The translations under genes and the position numbers were made by a program. 64,000 nt of DNA. It comes from Myxococcus stipitatus DSM 14675. Its GTDB lineage: Bacteria > Myxococcota > Myxococcia > Myxococcales > Myxococcaceae. Where the stretch lies: contig NC_020126.1 of the NCBI RefSeq assembly GCF_000331735.1, positions 186,001 to 250,000 of the forward strand. Direction: 5' to 3'. The notes below the pieces were generated by a model that did not search any database, was not told the origin of the DNA, and saw nothing but the letters and a program-made list of their open reading frames with translations. Positions 56,165 through 62,955 of the stretch are shown here, piece by piece; position 1 is the first letter of the stretch; the number at the start of each line of letters is the position of its first letter.

Positions 56165-58741
56165 TCACGCGTCCCAGTAGTAGCTCCACTTGAGCATCAG
56201 CGCGTCGGTGGCCGGGCCGGCCGCGAGCCTTCGGGGGCGCAGCGTGGCGTGGGGCCGCTCGCGCTCCGCGGTGGGCAGGCCCTGCTGCGTGCGCGAGTAG
56301 ACGACGAAGAACGTGGAGCCGAGCTGGTACTCCCACCGCGCGACGACGTTCACGTTGAGGGCCGTGTCGTAGAAGCTGCTGTCGTCCGCGTGCTCGACGG
56401 GCACCAGCGAGTCCAGCCGGATGCGCGTGCGGCGCTCATCGGACGTCGCGGTGAAGAAGGGGCCGTAGGTGCCGTGCGCGGTGAAGAGCTGCGCGTAGCC
56501 CTGCAGCGTGAGCCGGGGCGTCAGCACCCACTGCTGCCGCAGCGTGAGCGACAGGTATTGCGACTCCAGCTCGCCCAGGAGGAAGTCGCCCGTGCTCCGC
56601 GTCTCCACGTAGCGCGGCCCATGGTCCGTCAGGTCATTGCTCACGGAGAGCTCCGTCTCCAGCGAGGGGTGCGGCCGCACCGACACCGAGGCGCCCGCGT
56701 ACCAGCCCCACGCCGAGGCGCTGGGGCCGCCCTTGAAGCGGTGCCCCACGGAGAGCGTGGCATCCACCGCGACGAGGCGCTTGGGGTTGGACTCCACGTA
56801 CATGCTCACGAAGGCGCGGTCATTGCGCTCGAAGGGCACGCCCGTGCGAGTCAGCTCCCGCACGTCGAAGCTGTTCAGGTTCGTGCCCGTCTCGAAGCCC
56901 AGCAGGTCGAAGCTGGGCAGCGTGGCCTCCGCGTTGACGTTGAGCAGGGTGACGACGTGCTCGCGGCGCGCATCCGCCGTCCACCGGGAGATGGCCATGG
57001 CGTGGGCGTAGAACTCACGGAAGGGGCCCATGCCGTTGGGCTTCGAGTAGCGCAGCACGGCCCGAGGCGTGACTTCGTTCTGCGCGCGCTGGAAGCCCGC
57101 GGCCGACAGCGACAGCGTGGGCGACGCCACGTCCACGCCCACCTCCGGGCGCAGGCCCTCTCCACCGAAGCGGCCCGCGCGCAGGTAGCCTCCCGCGCCC
57201 GAGTCCCCGTCATGCAGCCGCGTGCCGTCCTCCAGCGTCCGCGAGGGAAGGCCGCCATCCACGCGCGACGCGACCATCATCCCGAACACGCCCCACTGGC
57301 CGTCCTGCGTCTTCAGGTCGAAGTCGAGCGAGCCCGCGTATCCCCCGCGAGCACGGCACGCCGCCGGACGCAGGTCCTCCTCGAGCCCCGCGTCCTCCAC
57401 GGTGCAGGGGCCCGACAGCGGGTTGGCCAGCGTCACCGCGCCGCCGACGACGGAGCCTTCGCCCACGCGCCCGCGCGCCACCGCCGCCAGGAAGTGCAGG
57501 GTGGGGGAGGGCCGGTCCGGCAACTCCAGCCCCGGACCCACGTGCATCGGACGGCGCCAGTCCAGGCGCAGGTCGTGGTCCGGGGTCGCCTCGTCCTGGT
57601 GCTGCCAGGGGCCGGTGACGAACGCATCCAGCACACCTACTTGCACGTCGCCCACCGAGCCCGTCACCTTCACCGCGCCCAGGAGGGGCGTCGTCAGGCC
57701 GATGCGCCGCGAGTAGAAGAGCGCCAGCGGAGAGTCCCCCGTGTCCATGCCCACCGGCTGGAACAGCTCCATGCCTTGGGTGAAGAAGGGGCGTCGCTCC
57801 GGGAAGTACGCCTCGAAGGTGCTCAGGTTGAGCAGCAGCTCGTCCGCTTCCACCTCGCCGAAGTCCGGGTTGAAGGTGGCCGCCAGCGACAGCTCGCTGG
57901 TGAGCGCGGCGCGCACGTCCAGCCCCACGTCCATGGAGGGACTGAACAGCCGGGGCGTGGGCCGGGACGCGTCGGAGAACTGGGGCCGCGCGAGGCCCCG
58001 CGCGGCCAGGTACGGCATCAGCTCCAGGCGCTTGCGAGGCCGCAGGTCCTCCATGCCCGTCAGGTGGCCCAGCCGCGACACATTGGCGTTGTGGTTGCGC
58101 GGGTTGTCGACGGACTCCAGCTCCTCGTTCTTGCGCGCGATGTCTCGCCGCACCGAGAAGCCCCACGTCTGCATGGAGGTGTCCGGGAAGCGCAGCAGGG
58201 AGAGGGGGATGGCGAACTCCGCCACCCAGCCGTCCTCCACGCTGCCCGCGGCGCCCGCCCAGATGCCGCTCCAGTCCTCCGTGTAGTAGCGGTCGTCGTA
58301 GTAGAGCCCGTCGCTCTGCACCCCGCCCGCGGTGATGGAGAACTGGTACGCCGTGCGGTGGCCGTGCGTCGAGTCGACCAGGACATGGAGGGTGTCGGAG
58401 AAGGGCGCGCTGTCGCGCCGCCCCAGTCGCCGGTCGATGCGCGCGGGCTCCGAGTCTCGCGCCACCACGCCCACGTACAGCATGTCCTCGTCGTAGAGGA
58501 TGCGCAGCTCCGTCTTCTCCGACGGAGTCTTGCCCGCCGTGGGGAAGCGCTCCACGAAGGCGTCGAAGACGGGCGCTCGAGCCCAGTCCGCCTCATCCAA
58601 CCGGCCGTCCACGTCCACCCGTCCCTGCGCCCGCGCCGCCCGGAGGAATTGCTCCTTCCCGGGCCCCTCCACCGCCGCGCTCGCCGCCAGACACCACAGC
58701 GACACACCGAGCGCGACGGCCCCTCTGACCTCGAATGCCAT
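56165..58741 (-). CDS. DUF5916 outer-membrane protein with N-terminal CBM9-like domain
   Basis: The 858-residue protein has a signal peptide (ALGVSLWCLAASAAVEG). Residues about 35-250 resemble a family 9 carbohydrate-binding domain (VDGRLDEADWARAPVFDAFVERFP, in parts; LYDEDMLYVGVVARDSEP). The rest is a DUF5916 beta-barrel with PEFAIPLSLLRFP-like and FFTQGMELFQPVGM segments. The last strand ends in LMLKWSYYWDA. It probably sits in the outer membrane. The substrate is unknown. An upstream frame extension is present, but the signal peptide fixes the start at 58741. Confidence 0.85.
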   Translation of the reverse strand: MAFEVRGAVALGVSLWCLAASAAVEGPGKEQFLRAARAQGRVDVDGRLDEADWARAPVFDAFVERFPTAGKTPSEKTELRILYDEDMLYVGVVARDSEPARIDRRLGRRDSAPFSDTLHVLVDSTHGHRTAYQFSITAGGVQSDGLYYDDRYYTEDWSGIWAGAAGSVEDGWVAEFAIPLSLLRFPDTSMQTWGFSVRRDIARKNEELESVDNPRNHNANVSRLGHLTGMEDLRPRKRLELMPYLAARGLARPQFSDASRPTPRLFSPSMDVGLDVRAALTSELSLAATFNPDFGEVEADELLLNLSTFEAYFPERRPFFTQGMELFQPVGMDTGDSPLALFYSRRIGLTTPLLGAVKVTGSVGDVQVGVLDAFVTGPWQHQDEATPDHDLRLDWRRPMHVGPGLELPDRPSPTLHFLAAVARGRVGEGSVVGGAVTLANPLSGPCTVEDAGLEEDLRPAACRARGGYAGSLDFDLKTQDGQWGVFGMMVASRVDGGLPSRTLEDGTRLHDGDSGAGGYLRAGRFGGEGLRPEVGVDVASPTLSLSAAGFQRAQNEVTPRAVLRYSKPNGMGPFREFYAHAMAISRWTADARREHVVTLLNVNAEATLPSFDLLGFETGTNLNSFDVRELTRTGVPFERNDRAFVSMYVESNPKRLVAVDATLSVGHRFKGGPSASAWGWYAGASVSVRPHPSLETELSVSNDLTDHGPRYVETRSTGDFLLGELESQYLSLTLRQQWVLTPRLTLQGYAQLFTAHGTYGPFFTATSDERRTRIRLDSLVPVEHADDSSFYDTALNVNVVARWEYQLGSTFFVVYSRTQQGLPTAERERPHATLRPRRLAAGPATDALMLKWSYYWDA

Positions 58742-58832
58742 GCCGCCTTTCCTCGTGCCCCATGGGCGGGGGACACCGGGTTTCTCCAGTAAGAACGTGA
58801 ATGGCCGGGGATGCTTGCACCACCCCGGAGTG

Positions 58833-59999
58833 CTACTTGCCCGGGCTCTTGCTCTCGCCTCGAGACATGGAACGCATGAACGTCTCATCGATTCCGTGAA
58901 TGCGCAGGCGCACCAGCTCCTCGGGGGTGATTTTTGTATAGCCCGCGTCGCGCAGCTTCTTCACGAAGTCGGACGTGACGCCGTGGATGCGGAACGAGAC
59001 CAGCTCTTCGTGAGTGATTTCCTTGAAGCCCAGGTCTCGCATCTCCTTCACGAAGGCCGAGGTGACGCCGTGGATGCGCAGAGCGGTGAAGTCTTCGGCC
59101 TCCAGGTCCTTGAAGCCCATGCCGCGCATCTCCTTCACGAAGGCGGTGGAGACGCCGTGGATGCGCAGGGCGGTGAGGTCCTCGGCGGACAAAGCCTTGA
59201 AGCCCAGCCCGCGCATCTCCTTGGCGTACTCCAGGGTGATGCCGTGGATGCGCAGGGCGACAATCTGGTCCGCGTCCGTGTGGGCGTAGCCCATGGAGCG
59301 CACCTCGCGGACGTACTCGGGCGTGACGCCGTGGATGGCCATGGCCACCACGTCCTCCCACGCGAGGTTCGGGTAGCCCGCGGTGGCCATGTCCTTCACC
59401 CGCTGCGGCGTGACGTTGTGGATGCGGCCCTGCACCAGCTCGTCGATGCTCAGCTTGTCGTAGCCCGCCTTCGCCATCTCCCGCACGTACTCGGGGGAGA
59501 CGTTGAAGATGCCCACCATGAACAGCTTCTCCAGCGGCAGGTCCTTGTGGCCTAGCGCCGCCAGGTCCTTCACCCGCTGCGGGGTGACATTCGTGGTCGC
59601 GAGCTGGAAGTGGTGGAAGGCGGAGAGCTTCGGGTAGCCCAGCGCGGCCATGTCCTTCGCGTAGCGCTCGCTGGGGGCGAAGCGGTAGTGGCCCGCGCCG
59701 GCGCCGTCCTGGAAGGCGCCCGTGAAGGAGAACAGGCCCGCCTCGCGCTGGAGGCTGAAGGTGGCGGGGCCGTCCGCCGTGGGCAGGCCCTGGAAGGCGG
59801 CGCGGGACTCCGAGAAGCCCATCTGCCCGCGGTCGTCGTCATCCTCGCCCGTGTGGGAGAGGTTGAGGTGCAGCGTGTCGGGCGCCTTCTCCCGGCGGGA
59901 GGACGTCCACGGGCCACTCACCTCCGACGAGGCCGCGGAGGCGCTGGTGGCCACCAGCAACAGGACACAGCAGGACACGAGGGACGGCAGGCGACGCAT
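58833..59999 (-). CDS. Secreted protein with eight 29-residue repeats, linked to BlaR1
   Basis: The 388-residue protein has a signal peptide (CCVLLLVATSASAAS), an N-terminal domain of about 120 residues and then eight full 29-residue repeats plus a partial one. A typical unit begins GVTPEYVREVRSMGY and ends IVALRIH. The same repeat makes up the C-terminus of BlaR1 encoded 155 bp upstream. It is likely exported to the periplasm, where it could bind BlaR1 or the same ligand. The 60-bp leader holds an imperfect hairpin around CGCGTCC-AAG-GGACGCG. No enzyme motif is seen. Confidence 0.75.
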   Translation of the reverse strand: MRRLPSLVSCCVLLLVATSASAASSEVSGPWTSSRREKAPDTLHLNLSHTGEDDDDRGQMGFSESRAAFQGLPTADGPATFSLQREAGLFSFTGAFQDGAGAGHYRFAPSERYAKDMAALGYPKLSAFHHFQLATTNVTPQRVKDLAALGHKDLPLEKLFMVGIFNVSPEYVREMAKAGYDKLSIDELVQGRIHNVTPQRVKDMATAGYPNLAWEDVVAMAIHGVTPEYVREVRSMGYAHTDADQIVALRIHGITLEYAKEMRGLGFKALSAEDLTALRIHGVSTAFVKEMRGMGFKDLEAEDFTALRIHGVTSAFVKEMRDLGFKEITHEELVSFRIHGVTSDFVKKLRDAGYTKITPEELVRLRIHGIDETFMRSMSRGESKSPGK

Positions 60000-60094
60000 G
60001 GCGAGGCTCCTTGGAAGACACGTCTCCCGTCCGGCGCGCGTCCAAGGGACGCGTCCGGGAGGGAGCGGGATGAGAGGGGGAGAGAGGGGCCACG

Positions 60095-60121
60095 GACACG
60101 GGAGCGCGAGGCTCCCGTGTC
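60095..60121. terminator. Hairpin after blaR1
   Basis: GACACGGGAGC and GCTCCCGTGTC pair perfectly over a 5-nt loop, 34 bp downstream of the BlaR1 stop. It may partly separate the BlaI-BlaR1 transcript from the repeat-protein gene. Confidence 0.6.
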
Positions 60122-60154
60122 ACTCGTGACGGTGATACGGGTGTATCAGGGCTG

Positions 60155-62161
60155 CTATTGCTTCTTGGTGGCGCGCATCCGCCGGATGAACTCGGCGTCC
60201 ACTCCACCGGAGCGCAGGCGCACCAGCTCGCGAGAGGAGAGGTTCTTCAGGCCCGCGTCGCTCAGCTCGCGGATGAACTCCGGGCTGACGTTCAGGGCGC
60301 GCAGCTCGACGAGCTCGTCCGGGTCCTTCATCTCCAGGCCCGCCGCGCGCATCCGCGACAGCCACTCCGGAGTCACGCCCACCGCGCGCAGGTGCTGCAG
60401 GTTCTTCGAGCTGAGCTTGGGCAGCCCCATCCGGGACATGCCGCGGATGAACTCCGGGTCCACGCCCACCGCGCGCAGGTGGGAGAGGTCTTCCAGCGAG
60501 AGGTTCGAGTAGCCCGCCGCACCCAGCTCGCGCACGTACTGCTCGCTGACGCCCACCGCGCGGGCCTCCACCACCTCATCCGGGTCCTTCGTCGCGAAGC
60601 CCGACTCCCTGAGCGCGCGGACGTACTCCGGGGTGACGCCCACCGCGTGCAGCTCCACCAGCGTGTCCGTGGAGAGCTTGCGGTCGAACGCCGCGTTCAT
60701 CTGCTTGAGGTACTCGAGGGTGACGCCCATGTGGCCCATCTCCACCACGTCGGAGACGGTGGCCTCGTAGCCCAGCGATTCCAGCTCCCGCACCTTCTCC
60801 GGCGTCACGCCCGCGAGCTTCAGCTCGACGAGCTGGTCGACCGTCAGCGGCTGGCCGCTTCCCACGCGCGTCTTGTCCTCACGGTCTTCATCCGGGCCCC
60901 GCATGGCCAGCTTCACCTGGGGACGGGGCGCCGCGGCCTCGCGGAAGCCAGGGGGCGGCGTCAGGGGCCGGGGCACGGCGACGGGCGCCGGAGGGGCCGC
61001 GAAGGCGGGGGGCTCGGGGGGCTCGACAGGTGAAGGCGCGGCCACGGTGGGCGCGGGGCCCTGGCCCAGCACCAGCGACGTCAGGGGCGCGGCGAGGGCC
61101 AGGCTGCTGACCAGCGTCAGCACGGAGGCCCCCGCCACCCAGCGGGACGAGCAGCGCGACGCGGGAGGCATCACGAGCCGCCGCACGCGGTCCGGCAGCG
61201 AGCCGCCCAGCGCGGACATGGCGTGGAGCAGCTCGGGCTGCACGCGCAGCGTCTCCAGCGCGGTGAGGGCCCGGGCGTAGGAGACGGAGTTGCCGCTGGC
61301 GCCCACCGCCACGTCGTCGCAGCAGTGCTCGCGCTCCACGCGGATGATGTCGGACATCCAGTGCACCGCCGGGTGGTAGAAGAAGAGGGTCTCCACCACC
61401 ACCTGCGCCAGGTTCACCGCGAAGTCGTGCCGGCGGATGTGGGCCAGCTCATGCGCCAGCACCATCTCCAGCTGGCGCGTGGGGAGCCCGGACAGCGCGG
61501 ACACGGGCAGCAGCACCACCGGCGACAGCCAGCCCACCGTGGAGGGCACGTCCACCTCGGTCGTCTGGAGCAGCCGCACCGCGTGCTTCAGGCCCAGCCG
61601 CTGGGAGAGCGCGTCCAGCCGCTCCTGCCACTCCTGCGGCGCGGGCAGGGCGCGGCGCGCGAGCTGGCGCAACTGCACCCACTGCGCCGTCAGCCGGCCG
61701 GACGTCAGTCCCACGCCCGCCACCCACGCGATGACCAGCCACCGCAGCAGCCCGGAGAGCGACGCGCGCACCCACTCCACCATCGGCGCCCACGCGCCCT
61801 GGGCCTCGCGCTCCACCTGCTCGAGCAGGGCGGCCGGGCGGCCCTCCGCGCGAGTCGTGAAGGGGAAGGTCTCGGGCGTGGCCCGGCGAGCGAAGCCCTC
61901 CGGCGTCGAGCGGAGCCCGGGCAGGAGCGAGGCCTGCTCCTGGCGCCGCTCCGCGCGGGCCTGCGTCGCGTGCCGGACACCCGTGGCGACCGGCATCACC
62001 ACGGCCAGCACCAGCGCGCCACACGCCAGCGCATAGCGGGCGTTGGCCGCGCGCGCGCCCACCATCAACAGCGCCGCCGCCAGGCCCAGCGCCACCAGCG
62101 TGCCCTGCCAGAGCGAGTGCAGCAGCGCCCACCCCAGGGACTCCATCACCAGGCCGCTCAT
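60155..62161 (-). CDS. BlaR1-type M56 sensor peptidase with C-terminal 29-residue repeats
   Basis: The 668-residue protein has membrane helices at about 8-38, 42-62 and 140-155 and a cytoplasmic zinc peptidase loop with H237-E238-x-x-H241 (AHELAHIRRHD) and E268 (REHCCDD). A further helix follows near 350. Beyond it lies a Pro-rich linker and about seven 29-residue repeats (for example GVSEQYVRELGAAGY). Classical BlaR1 has a penicillin-binding domain in that place. It should sense an external signal and cleave BlaI. Its ATG overlaps the BlaI stop (ATGA). Confidence 0.9.
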   Translation of the reverse strand: MSGLVMESLGWALLHSLWQGTLVALGLAAALLMVGARAANARYALACGALVLAVVMPVATGVRHATQARAERRQEQASLLPGLRSTPEGFARRATPETFPFTTRAEGRPAALLEQVEREAQGAWAPMVEWVRASLSGLLRWLVIAWVAGVGLTSGRLTAQWVQLRQLARRALPAPQEWQERLDALSQRLGLKHAVRLLQTTEVDVPSTVGWLSPVVLLPVSALSGLPTRQLEMVLAHELAHIRRHDFAVNLAQVVVETLFFYHPAVHWMSDIIRVEREHCCDDVAVGASGNSVSYARALTALETLRVQPELLHAMSALGGSLPDRVRRLVMPPASRCSSRWVAGASVLTLVSSLALAAPLTSLVLGQGPAPTVAAPSPVEPPEPPAFAAPPAPVAVPRPLTPPPGFREAAAPRPQVKLAMRGPDEDREDKTRVGSGQPLTVDQLVELKLAGVTPEKVRELESLGYEATVSDVVEMGHMGVTLEYLKQMNAAFDRKLSTDTLVELHAVGVTPEYVRALRESGFATKDPDEVVEARAVGVSEQYVRELGAAGYSNLSLEDLSHLRAVGVDPEFIRGMSRMGLPKLSSKNLQHLRAVGVTPEWLSRMRAAGLEMKDPDELVELRALNVSPEFIRELSDAGLKNLSSRELVRLRSGGVDAEFIRRMRATKKQ

Positions 62162-62556
62162 TCGTCCGCTCCTTCCAGGGAATCCAGCAGCTGACGCAGC
62201 TCCGCCAGCTCCTCGGGGCTCGTCTTGCGAGAGGACAGCGCCTGCATCGCCAGCCGCGCGGGAGAGCCACCGAAGGCGCGCTCCACCAGGTCCGTCACCA
62301 GCTGCCGCTGCGTGCGCTGCTCCGTCGCCCGAGCCCGGTACACGTGCGCGCGCTGCGACTCGTCGCGCTCCACCAGGCCCTTGTCCGTCATGATCTGCAT
62401 CAGCTTGAGCACCGTCGTGTAGCCCGTGCCTTCCTCGGGCTCCTTCCGGTTCAGCGACTCGTGGACCTCTCGCACCGTGCTGTCCCCGCGCGCCCAGAGC
62501 ACCCGCAGGATGGCCAGCTCGCCGTCCGTCGGACGCGGCAGCTTCGATTCACTCAT
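62158..62556 (-). CDS. BlaI/MecI/CopY-family repressor
   Basis: The 132-residue protein has the winged-helix domain of BlaI: LPRPTDGELAILRVLWARGDSTVREVHE and TGYTTVLKLMQIMTDKGLVERD, both seen in parts, followed by a helical dimerisation tail. It represses its own operon until BlaR1 cleaves it. Two perfect operators overlap its promoter (62588-62624). GAGAGGAAG precedes the ATG. It is coupled to blaR1 by a 4-bp overlap. Confidence 0.93.
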   Translation of the reverse strand: MSESKLPRPTDGELAILRVLWARGDSTVREVHESLNRKEPEEGTGYTTVLKLMQIMTDKGLVERDESQRAHVYRARATEQRTQRQLVTDLVERAFGGSPARLAMQALSSRKTSPEELAELRQLLDSLEGADE

Positions 62557-62583
62557 GGCTTCCTCTCGACAATCCACGACGTC

Positions 62584-62611
62584 ATCATACGAATGGGTTC
62601 GTAGATGTCAA
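62584..62611 (-). promoter_or_regulatory. Housekeeping promoter of the blaI-blaR1 operon
   Basis: On the minus strand, TTGACA (62611-62606) and TATGAT (62589-62584) lie 16 bp apart, 28 bp upstream of the blaI ATG. Both boxes are near consensus, which is uncommon in this GC-rich DNA. Confidence 0.8.
62588..62603. promoter_or_regulatory. BlaI operator 1
   Basis: TACGAATGGGTTCGTA is a palindrome with perfect 6-bp arms and a 4-bp centre. It overlaps the spacer and the -10 box of the blaI promoter. Confidence 0.75.
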
Positions 62612-62624
62612 CGAAGGGCTTCGT
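62611..62624. promoter_or_regulatory. BlaI operator 2
   Basis: ACGAAGGGCTTCGT has perfect 5-bp arms and a 4-bp centre; its first base is the first T of the -35 box. It starts 22 bp from the corresponding base of operator 1, about two helical turns. Both are followed by AGATG. Confidence 0.75.
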
Positions 62625-62955
62625 AGATGCGTCGGGTGGGGTGGTCTTCGCTCGGTGAGTGTGGGTTTTTCGCGAGCCTGGGGCCCGCATTGCTCATCGC
62701 GGCGCCTGCCTGCTCCAGGGATTTTCCCACGCGGAGAAGCGGGGAGCCTCGCGGGTGGGAAGGCCGTTGCCCACGGAGGGGAACGCAGGTTCCTCACAAG
62801 CACCCCCGCGGTCTTGCCCGCTCCTCCCCCGGGGTGGTGGGTCCGTCGCCGTGGAAGCGGCCGGGCAGGCGCTCCTGCTGGCACAAAGGGTGAAAAAGCC
62901 CTCCTCGCGACGGGCCATCGGGGCTCGAGAAGAACACGCAAGACGAGGCAGACAC

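Follow-up and report, generated by a model that had tools for sequence, protein, structure and literature searches.

A 64,000-nucleotide stretch of the Myxococcus stipitatus DSM 14675 genome (NC_020126.1, positions 186,001 to 250,000; hereafter the window, whose numbering is used throughout) carries on its minus strand neighboring genes for a BlaI-type repressor, a BlaR1-type M56 receptor that ends in helical repeats, a secreted protein built largely of the same repeats (hereafter the partner), and a DUF5916 protein. We consider the chance about even, or barely better, that this is a split BlaR1-type system, in which the detached solenoid of the partner is both a regulated product and a co-sensor of what is probably an envelope or peptidoglycan signal. 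A functional link between receptor and partner, which the original prediction had proposed from their common repeat, is well supported by sequence comparison, and the support comes from the operator that accompanies the partner gene even when it is unlinked, from natural fusions, and from the decay of the receptor repeats in genomes with no detected partner. Sharing of the repeat is by itself insufficient for the link because the repeat is also used in other settings.

Operators and pairing of receptor with partner

Upstream of blaI lies the palindrome TACGAA-N4-TTCGTT, followed 22 bp on by TACGAA-N4-TTCGTA. On the minus strand, operator O1 (TACGAAGCCCTTCGTT, 62610–62625) overlaps the −35 hexamer TTGACA (62606–62611), and operator O2 (TACGAACCCATTCGTA, 62588–62603) overlaps the −10 hexamer TATGAT (62584–62589), of a promoter that matches the consensus at 11 of 12 positions and is the sole promoter-like site in 58600–62700. 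Within one mismatch, the palindrome occurs at five places in the M. stipitatus genome, namely the pair at the blaI promoter and three single sites. The single sites were rejected as targets: one stands, by eye, beside a TetR-type gene, and the other two, 2 kb apart, have like contexts resembling paralogous coding sequence.

Among the 62 Myxococcaceae genomes with matches, 56 were read (G019, G024, G026, G027, G066, and G074 were left out), and their cassettes have two operator sites with at most one mismatch in 53 cases and one site in 3; at L069 and L071, a second operator was seen with two mismatches. The partner gene is adjacent in 49 of the 56, unlinked in 5, and not found in 2. Each of the five unlinked partner genes (G032, G033, G034, G036, and G038; loci L064, L066, L068, L070, and L155) has its own promoter with a double operator, and so has the second partner gene of G111 (L102, spacing 21 bp). 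When 96 genomes were scanned with O1, 67 had a match with no more than one mismatch, and 64 of the matches listed were exact. Of these 64, 50 coincide with the cassette or, judging from their coordinates, lie a short way upstream of it; 10 are away from the blaI-M56 locus, at five partner, three DUF5916, and two PF00144 genes; 2 (G009, G012) are at M56 genes without repeats; and 2 (G019, G066) are on contigs left unread. Single sites in G004 and G007, which by eye lie inside a kinase-like frame, were not counted.

The two genomes in which the partner was not found (G037, G039) keep BlaI, M56, and both operators. Scored with a profile made from the window repeats, however, their receptor repeats have means of 9.6 and 8.3 bits, respectively, versus 16.9–39.5 bits in the 54 partner-bearing genomes, including genus mates G036 (19.6 bits) and G038 (21.8 bits).

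Fusion of M56, β-domain, and repeats in one open frame was found in 10 genomes, eight from the Bacteroidota scan (G196, G671, G679, G623, G715, G723, G776, and G784) and two from the Acidobacteriota scan (G264, G330). A BlaI frame is in view at 8 of the 10, whereas the sequence of the remaining two loci ends near the fused frame, and the four fused proteins scanned against Pfam (L124, L219, L240, and L241) all had M56. Every match reported in these genomes at E ≤ 1e-8 falls in the fused frame, and no separate partner was reported. G600 has a fusion together with two further separate partners. An 855-residue frame at L262 contained no hidden M56 domain on scanning.

Architecture of the two proteins

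The coordinates and the presence of an exported protein encoded downstream, both given in the original prediction, were borne out, and both genes are on the minus strand. The partner gene (58833–59999, minus) encodes 388 residues, of which residues 4–22, at the N terminus, form the sole hydrophobic segment. In an AlphaFold2 model made with 46 partner sequences (mean predicted local distance difference test score, pLDDT, 91.9), a six-stranded β-domain (residues 27–109; 59673–59921, minus) is followed by nine repeats of 29 residues with two helices each (residues 120–380; 58860–59642, minus); the protein had correctly been described as consisting mostly of repeats, but eight of them had been counted. 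Neither the repeats nor the β-domain of the window proteins matched a Pfam or NCBIfam family above cut-off, and for the partner these databases gave no enzyme family above cut-off.

The receptor gene (60155–62161, minus; 668 residues) matches PF05569 at residues 138–308 (E 5.9e-28). HExxH is present in all 38 aligned sequences, and H237, E238, H241, and E278 are invariant among them, so the protein has both the HExxH motif and the downstream glutamate of M56 proteases. It scores 73.8 bits against the NCBIfam blaR1_generic cut-off of 400, in a match confined to residues 134–286, and 31.4 bits against the curated MecR1 equivalog cut-off of 1200. No penicillin-binding or transpeptidase domain was found in it in Pfam or NCBIfam at E up to 1; the repeats stand, as had been foreseen, in place of such a domain, and at the C terminus no class D β-lactamase-like sensor domain of the BlaR1/MecR1 kind is recognizable in these databases. 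Of five hydrophobic segments in the hydropathy profile, one (residues 205–223) lies within the protease domain. The last (residues 342–360; 61082–61138, minus) has four Lys/Arg in the 15 residues before it and none in the 15 after it, and therefore the C-terminal repeats are predicted to lie outside; a model helix at residues 339–364 spans this segment with a pLDDT of only about 54–58. In the AlphaFold2 model of the receptor (38 sequences; mean pLDDT 82.7), a low-confidence linker precedes confident repeats, with 10-residue blocks at pLDDT 88–96 over residues 431–660. The predicted ectodomain is an α-solenoid of eight repeats (residues 435–664; 60170–60859, minus), where about seven had been expected; the 29-residue period had been rightly noted, and it holds except for one step of 28 (motif starts 451, 479, 508 ...). 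Structure prediction, which had been suggested as a check, gave two-helix repeats forming a solenoid in both proteins.

Relationship of the repeat arrays

Judged by sequence, both arrays are of one family. A profile from the partner repeats alone scored the M56 ectodomain at 118.3 bits in 8 domains, the best shuffle reaching 6.7 bits (1000 shuffles were made, of which 473 gave a score). With the partner as the query, a genome search matched the receptor at 38% identity over 166 residues (E 6.8e-31), and the three rows at E ≤ 1 in the whole 10.35-Mb genome all fall within the receptor and partner genes; a plasmid search with the same query gave no match.

The repeat is a general helical module. 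A sequence search of the PDB returned five rows, with a TALE chain at E 1.1e-4 and the other four at 0.65 or worse, and Foldseek returned one designed protein at E 1.1e-4, the remainder being above 0.2, with no close solved structure. TALE-like and mTERF solenoids have two-helix repeats in common with the window proteins: the top rows (TALE, BurrH, and a TOD6-DNA complex) have Z 8.5–8.7, and mTERF4 has Z 6.3–6.6 in a second structural comparison. The top four rows have root mean square deviations of 10.5–13.7 Å over 263–274 residues, and such Z values are, according to the tool, common for repeats. TALE repeats have 33–35 residues; the window repeats, unlike them, have 29 and are predicted to lie outside the inner membrane, and there is no evidence for nucleic-acid binding. 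Homology to TALE or mTERF was not accepted from this resemblance. Short Pfam matches inside the repeats were judged to be chance, though some pass the cut-off in relatives, including LYTB and DUF732 (L109, 5788–6825), UBA_3 (L119), and, within the repeats of the fused protein L240, Decapeptide PF25296 (E 4.4e-19), two MerR models, and UBA_3. That the repeats of this fused M56 protein (L240:43–3330, G776) pass the PF25296 cut-off points to a possible tie between repeat families.

An Ile-His pair characterizes partner repeats in Myxococcaceae (Ile 90%, His 74%) and elsewhere (82% and 88%), and in 27 repeats from fused or unassigned proteins the pair is similarly common (74% and 85%), all these percentages including redundant records. 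Myxococcaceae receptor repeats have mostly Ala at the Ile site, and His is outside the top five residues at the next site; we infer that these repeats are a diverged docking half. Charge complementarity between receptor and partner was dropped as an idea, since the isoelectric point of the receptor repeats is mostly 4.7–6.4 yet 8.8–9.7 in eight loci. The receptor repeats of G111 (L103:6139–8337) are so diverged that they resemble another helical repeat, and a normal partner adjoins.

Locus and predicted operon

The blaI gene (62158–62556, minus) encodes a Penicillinase_R domain (PF03965, E 4.8e-26); its start was assigned visually to the ATG that opens MSESK, and the open frame extends from 62577. 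Its domain and its position adjoining the receptor gene, whose start overlaps the blaI stop, are those of BlaI/MecI. The DUF5916/CBM9-like protein gene (56165–58741, minus; start by eye) matches PF19313 (E 9.9e-35) and falls just short of PF06452, with 23.0 bits against a cut-off of 23.4. The gaps are 155 bp between receptor and partner and ~92 bp between partner and DUF5916 gene. The scan of 58600–62700 showed nothing terminator-like on the minus strand, and an 11-bp perfect hairpin at 60095–60121 was not scored as a terminator. The four genes are predicted to form one operon, with the DUF5916 gene last. Whereas bla and mec operons make a β-lactamase or a low-affinity penicillin-binding protein, none of the four genes here encodes a β-lactamase, and the genes downstream of the receptor are those of the partner and the DUF5916 protein. 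PADLOC gave just one weak match for the four proteins, of the repressor to Csa3 (E 3.4e-4).

Other genes with the operator

The DUF5916 gene is a frequent but not universal member of the regulon. It has 29 matches with E = 0 in Myxococcaceae, 17 of them directly after the partner; three located elsewhere have their own double operator (G014 C39, G015, and G059), and nine located elsewhere have none among the O1 matches listed. In G014 (L143:3543–5896) and G015 (L151:5816–8199), which are two species, a double operator stands directly before a frame with a signal-peptide-like start that runs into a DEAD-box helicase. Away from the cassette, PF00144 genes of G006 (L145:6309–7808) and G007 (L146:4891–6390) have a double operator ~90 bp before the likely start; among the sites read, only these two genomes show it. 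The PF00144 family includes many enzymes other than β-lactamases. The operator of the repeat receptors also stands, in G009, before genes for a BlaI relative and an M56 protein that ends in SLT lytic-transglycosylase and M23 peptidase domains (L149:3437–5786). This protein is possibly a peptidoglycan-reading BlaR1 variant, and it is our best hint that the signal concerns peptidoglycan.

Palindromes before blaI differ among groups: a GCTACA type was seen in Alphaproteobacteria (L126, L127, and L132) and an ACTAAT type in two Bacteroidota (L124, L282), while the TACGAA type is shared by the acidobacterial loci L109, L111, L129, L289, L297, and L298. For further fetched loci, a simple palindrome test found none in 8 of 18 stretches upstream of BlaI.

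Distribution of the repeats

The phylum to which the window belongs has matches at E ≤ 1e-6 in 63 of 195 genomes, only one of them outside Myxococcaceae; at E ≤ 1e-8, matches were found in 46 of 297 Acidobacteriota and 50 of 345 Bacteroidota genomes. An all-genome scan yielded 31 loci, of which 17 are blaI-M56-partner cassettes (12 of them outside Myxococcaceae; in that at L129 the partner is split over two frames), 1 is a fusion, 1 is a blaI-M56 locus with repeats whose partner was not seen, 6 are partners or fragments without M56 in view, and 6 are repeat proteins without the β-domain. Another 20 loci fetched from matches comprise 17 split cassettes, 1 fusion with two partners, 1 solo partner, and 1 fragment. 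Split cassettes recur in Acidobacteriota, Alphaproteobacteria, and Bacteroidota.

The best match in 37 of the 50 Bacteroidota genomes is a frame of fewer than 300 residues, and 16 of 17 such short frames read have one hydrophobic segment near the N terminus, the exception being a 144-residue frame (L255). A conserved protein of ~235 residues with four or five repeats and one hydrophobic segment at the N terminus recurs at L245–L261 with no M56 in view, and such proteins are possibly a second, membrane-anchored use of the repeats. Acidobacterial solo partners with weak repeats were seen at L270–L280, and 8 of the 17 loci compared have in common a further secreted-looking neighbor directly upstream, with no M56 or BlaI. 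Caldilineaceae proteins of the SHOCT-like_DUF2089-C type (L118, L120, L122, and L123) share the repeats but have no signal peptide, membrane segment, or β-domain; PF22746 is above cut-off in L122 and L123 and short of it in L118 and L120. Many repeats are also present at L119:2014–3399 and L121:2226–3482, on contigs titled as Heimdallarchaeota and Kariarchaeota metagenome-assembled genomes (MAGs), where a binning error is possible; at L119 a small-GTPase-like gene, identified by eye, adjoins the repeat gene.

Discussion

The domains, the gene order, the operators including those at unlinked partners, the fusions, and the repeat decay without a partner are read from sequence; topology, co-transcription, binding and cleavage of BlaI, receptor–partner contact, the sign of the feedback, and the nature of the ligand are inferred. 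In the mechanism we propose, the BlaI-type repressor would keep the four-gene operon low by occupying two operators over its single promoter, and the partner would be a detached sensor module, composed of β-domain and solenoid, that works together with the receptor on the outer side of the inner membrane. The receptor–partner state would be altered by a signal, most probably a product of the envelope or of peptidoglycan, whereupon the M56 protease would remove BlaI and the operon would refill the partner. By analogy with CpxP and RseB, free partner would most likely quiet the receptor, and its loss to ligand or damage would release the protease. A split receptor with the partner as both co-sensor and feedback element is preferred because the fusions and the co-decay together fit it best.

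Several observations weigh against this reading. The partner-less G037 and G039 belong to one genus and may represent one loss, and the decay of their receptor repeats could reflect relaxation rather than lost contact. G111, which is outside the family, keeps two partners although its receptor repeats have a mean of 2.2 bits, and a low repeat score alone therefore does not signify loss of the partner. The lack of a separate partner in fusion genomes is weak evidence because just the best two to six first-look candidates per genome were scored, all candidates having been scored only in G671 and G723. The Ile-His contrast between partner and receptor is mixed outside Myxococcaceae, where receptors have Ile at 33% and His at 50%. 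The partner is found with the receptor in 54 of 56 Myxococcaceae genomes, but the constant co-occurrence that had been suggested as a check does not extend to Acidobacteriota: at 20 loci chosen for showing no adjacent same-strand M56, some of them short stretches, none has an M56 with repeats and 19 have no M56 or BlaI at E ≤ 1e-5, and solo partners are therefore real and common in that phylum. One conserved neighborhood was seen repeatedly among these loci. Wide occurrence of the repeats in unlinked cytoplasmic proteins, which the original prediction had named as evidence that would count against it, is seen in part, in proteins of four Caldilineaceae (Chloroflexota) and two archaeal MAGs that are predicted to be cytoplasmic from the absence of a signal peptide and membrane segment. 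Finally, the hint toward peptidoglycan comes from one relative, G009, with a different ectodomain.

The main rival explanation, to which we give a distinctly smaller though appreciable probability, is that sensor and secreted product share a ligand without touching, the product removing or processing the sensed molecule as a β-lactamase does. It has a parallel in the relation of the Staphylococcus aureus BlaR1 sensor domain to class D β-lactamases, as described in one report (PMC9834060), and it agrees with the partner being an operator-controlled product, with the operator before a gene of the PF00144 serine β-lactamase family in G006 and G007, and with the fusions, which also fit a sensor that simply has the partner architecture. 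It does not, however, itself predict that receptor repeats decay without a partner while BlaI, operators, and M56 persist, and the partner resembles no enzyme family above cut-off. That the repeats are instead a generic scaffold reused in unrelated roles, with the membrane part of the M56 protein doing the sensing, seems improbable to us. In its favor, Caldilineaceae, archaeal MAGs, the ~235-residue membrane-anchored Bacteroidota proteins, and the solo acidobacterial proteins have the repeats with no M56 in view, but in the window genome only receptor and partner match, and operators accompanying the relocated partner, fusions, and co-decay all speak against it. Least credible, to the point of being very improbable, is a true β-lactam-inducible system whose signal comes from peptidoglycan turnover or from a penicillin-binding protein distinct from the receptor. 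One report (PMC3305447) describes that a peptidoglycan dipeptide can elicit a response of BlaI/MecI and that peptidoglycan fragments can act on BlaI, and a PF00144 gene stands behind the operator in two genomes; against this, the receptor has no penicillin-binding domain, the four genes include no β-lactamase, and the operator pair of this genome is solely at the blaI promoter.

We would tentatively extend the split-receptor reading, while regarding the extension as somewhat less likely true than false, to a widespread class of BlaR1 receptors in at least four phyla whose sensing half is a free secreted solenoid, with the halves separate or fused, where the most conserved product of the repressor, besides repressor and receptor, is the sensing half, and which would form a closed-loop sensor of envelope state and not of antibiotics. 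In Myxococcota, Acidobacteriota, Alphaproteobacteria, and Bacteroidota, the BlaR1 repressor-protease core comes with an ectodomain of quite another kind and with a secreted partner, which offers a testable view of non-antibiotic signals for M56 receptors, and the operator could serve as a reporter. In the window proteins, the repeat and the β-domain go unnamed by the family databases searched. Among open-licence PMC literature, judged by the titles and abstract openings of the papers listed, no description of the blaI-M56-repeat-partner system was found, nor was literature on DUF5916 found in open-licence PMC.

Comparison with known systems

BlaR1 is known mainly as a β-lactam sensor. Like the BlaR1-BlaI and MecR1-MecI systems of S. 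aureus and Bacillus licheniformis, the present system has a BlaI-type repressor and an HExxH M56 protease encoded by adjacent genes, a predicted C-terminal ectodomain past the last membrane segment, palindromes over the promoter, and one product with a domain of the same family as the sensor. It differs from them in that the ectodomain is made of helical repeats rather than a penicillin-binding domain, and in that a secreted repeat protein and a DUF5916 protein are produced in place of a β-lactamase or PBP2a. In CpxP-CpxA and RseB-RseA, the membrane sensor is tuned by a periplasmic protein that its own regulon supplies. The likeness to these pairs is in the proposed feedback logic only, since the proteins are unrelated, and in contrast to them, the sensor and its proposed modulator here share a repeat family.

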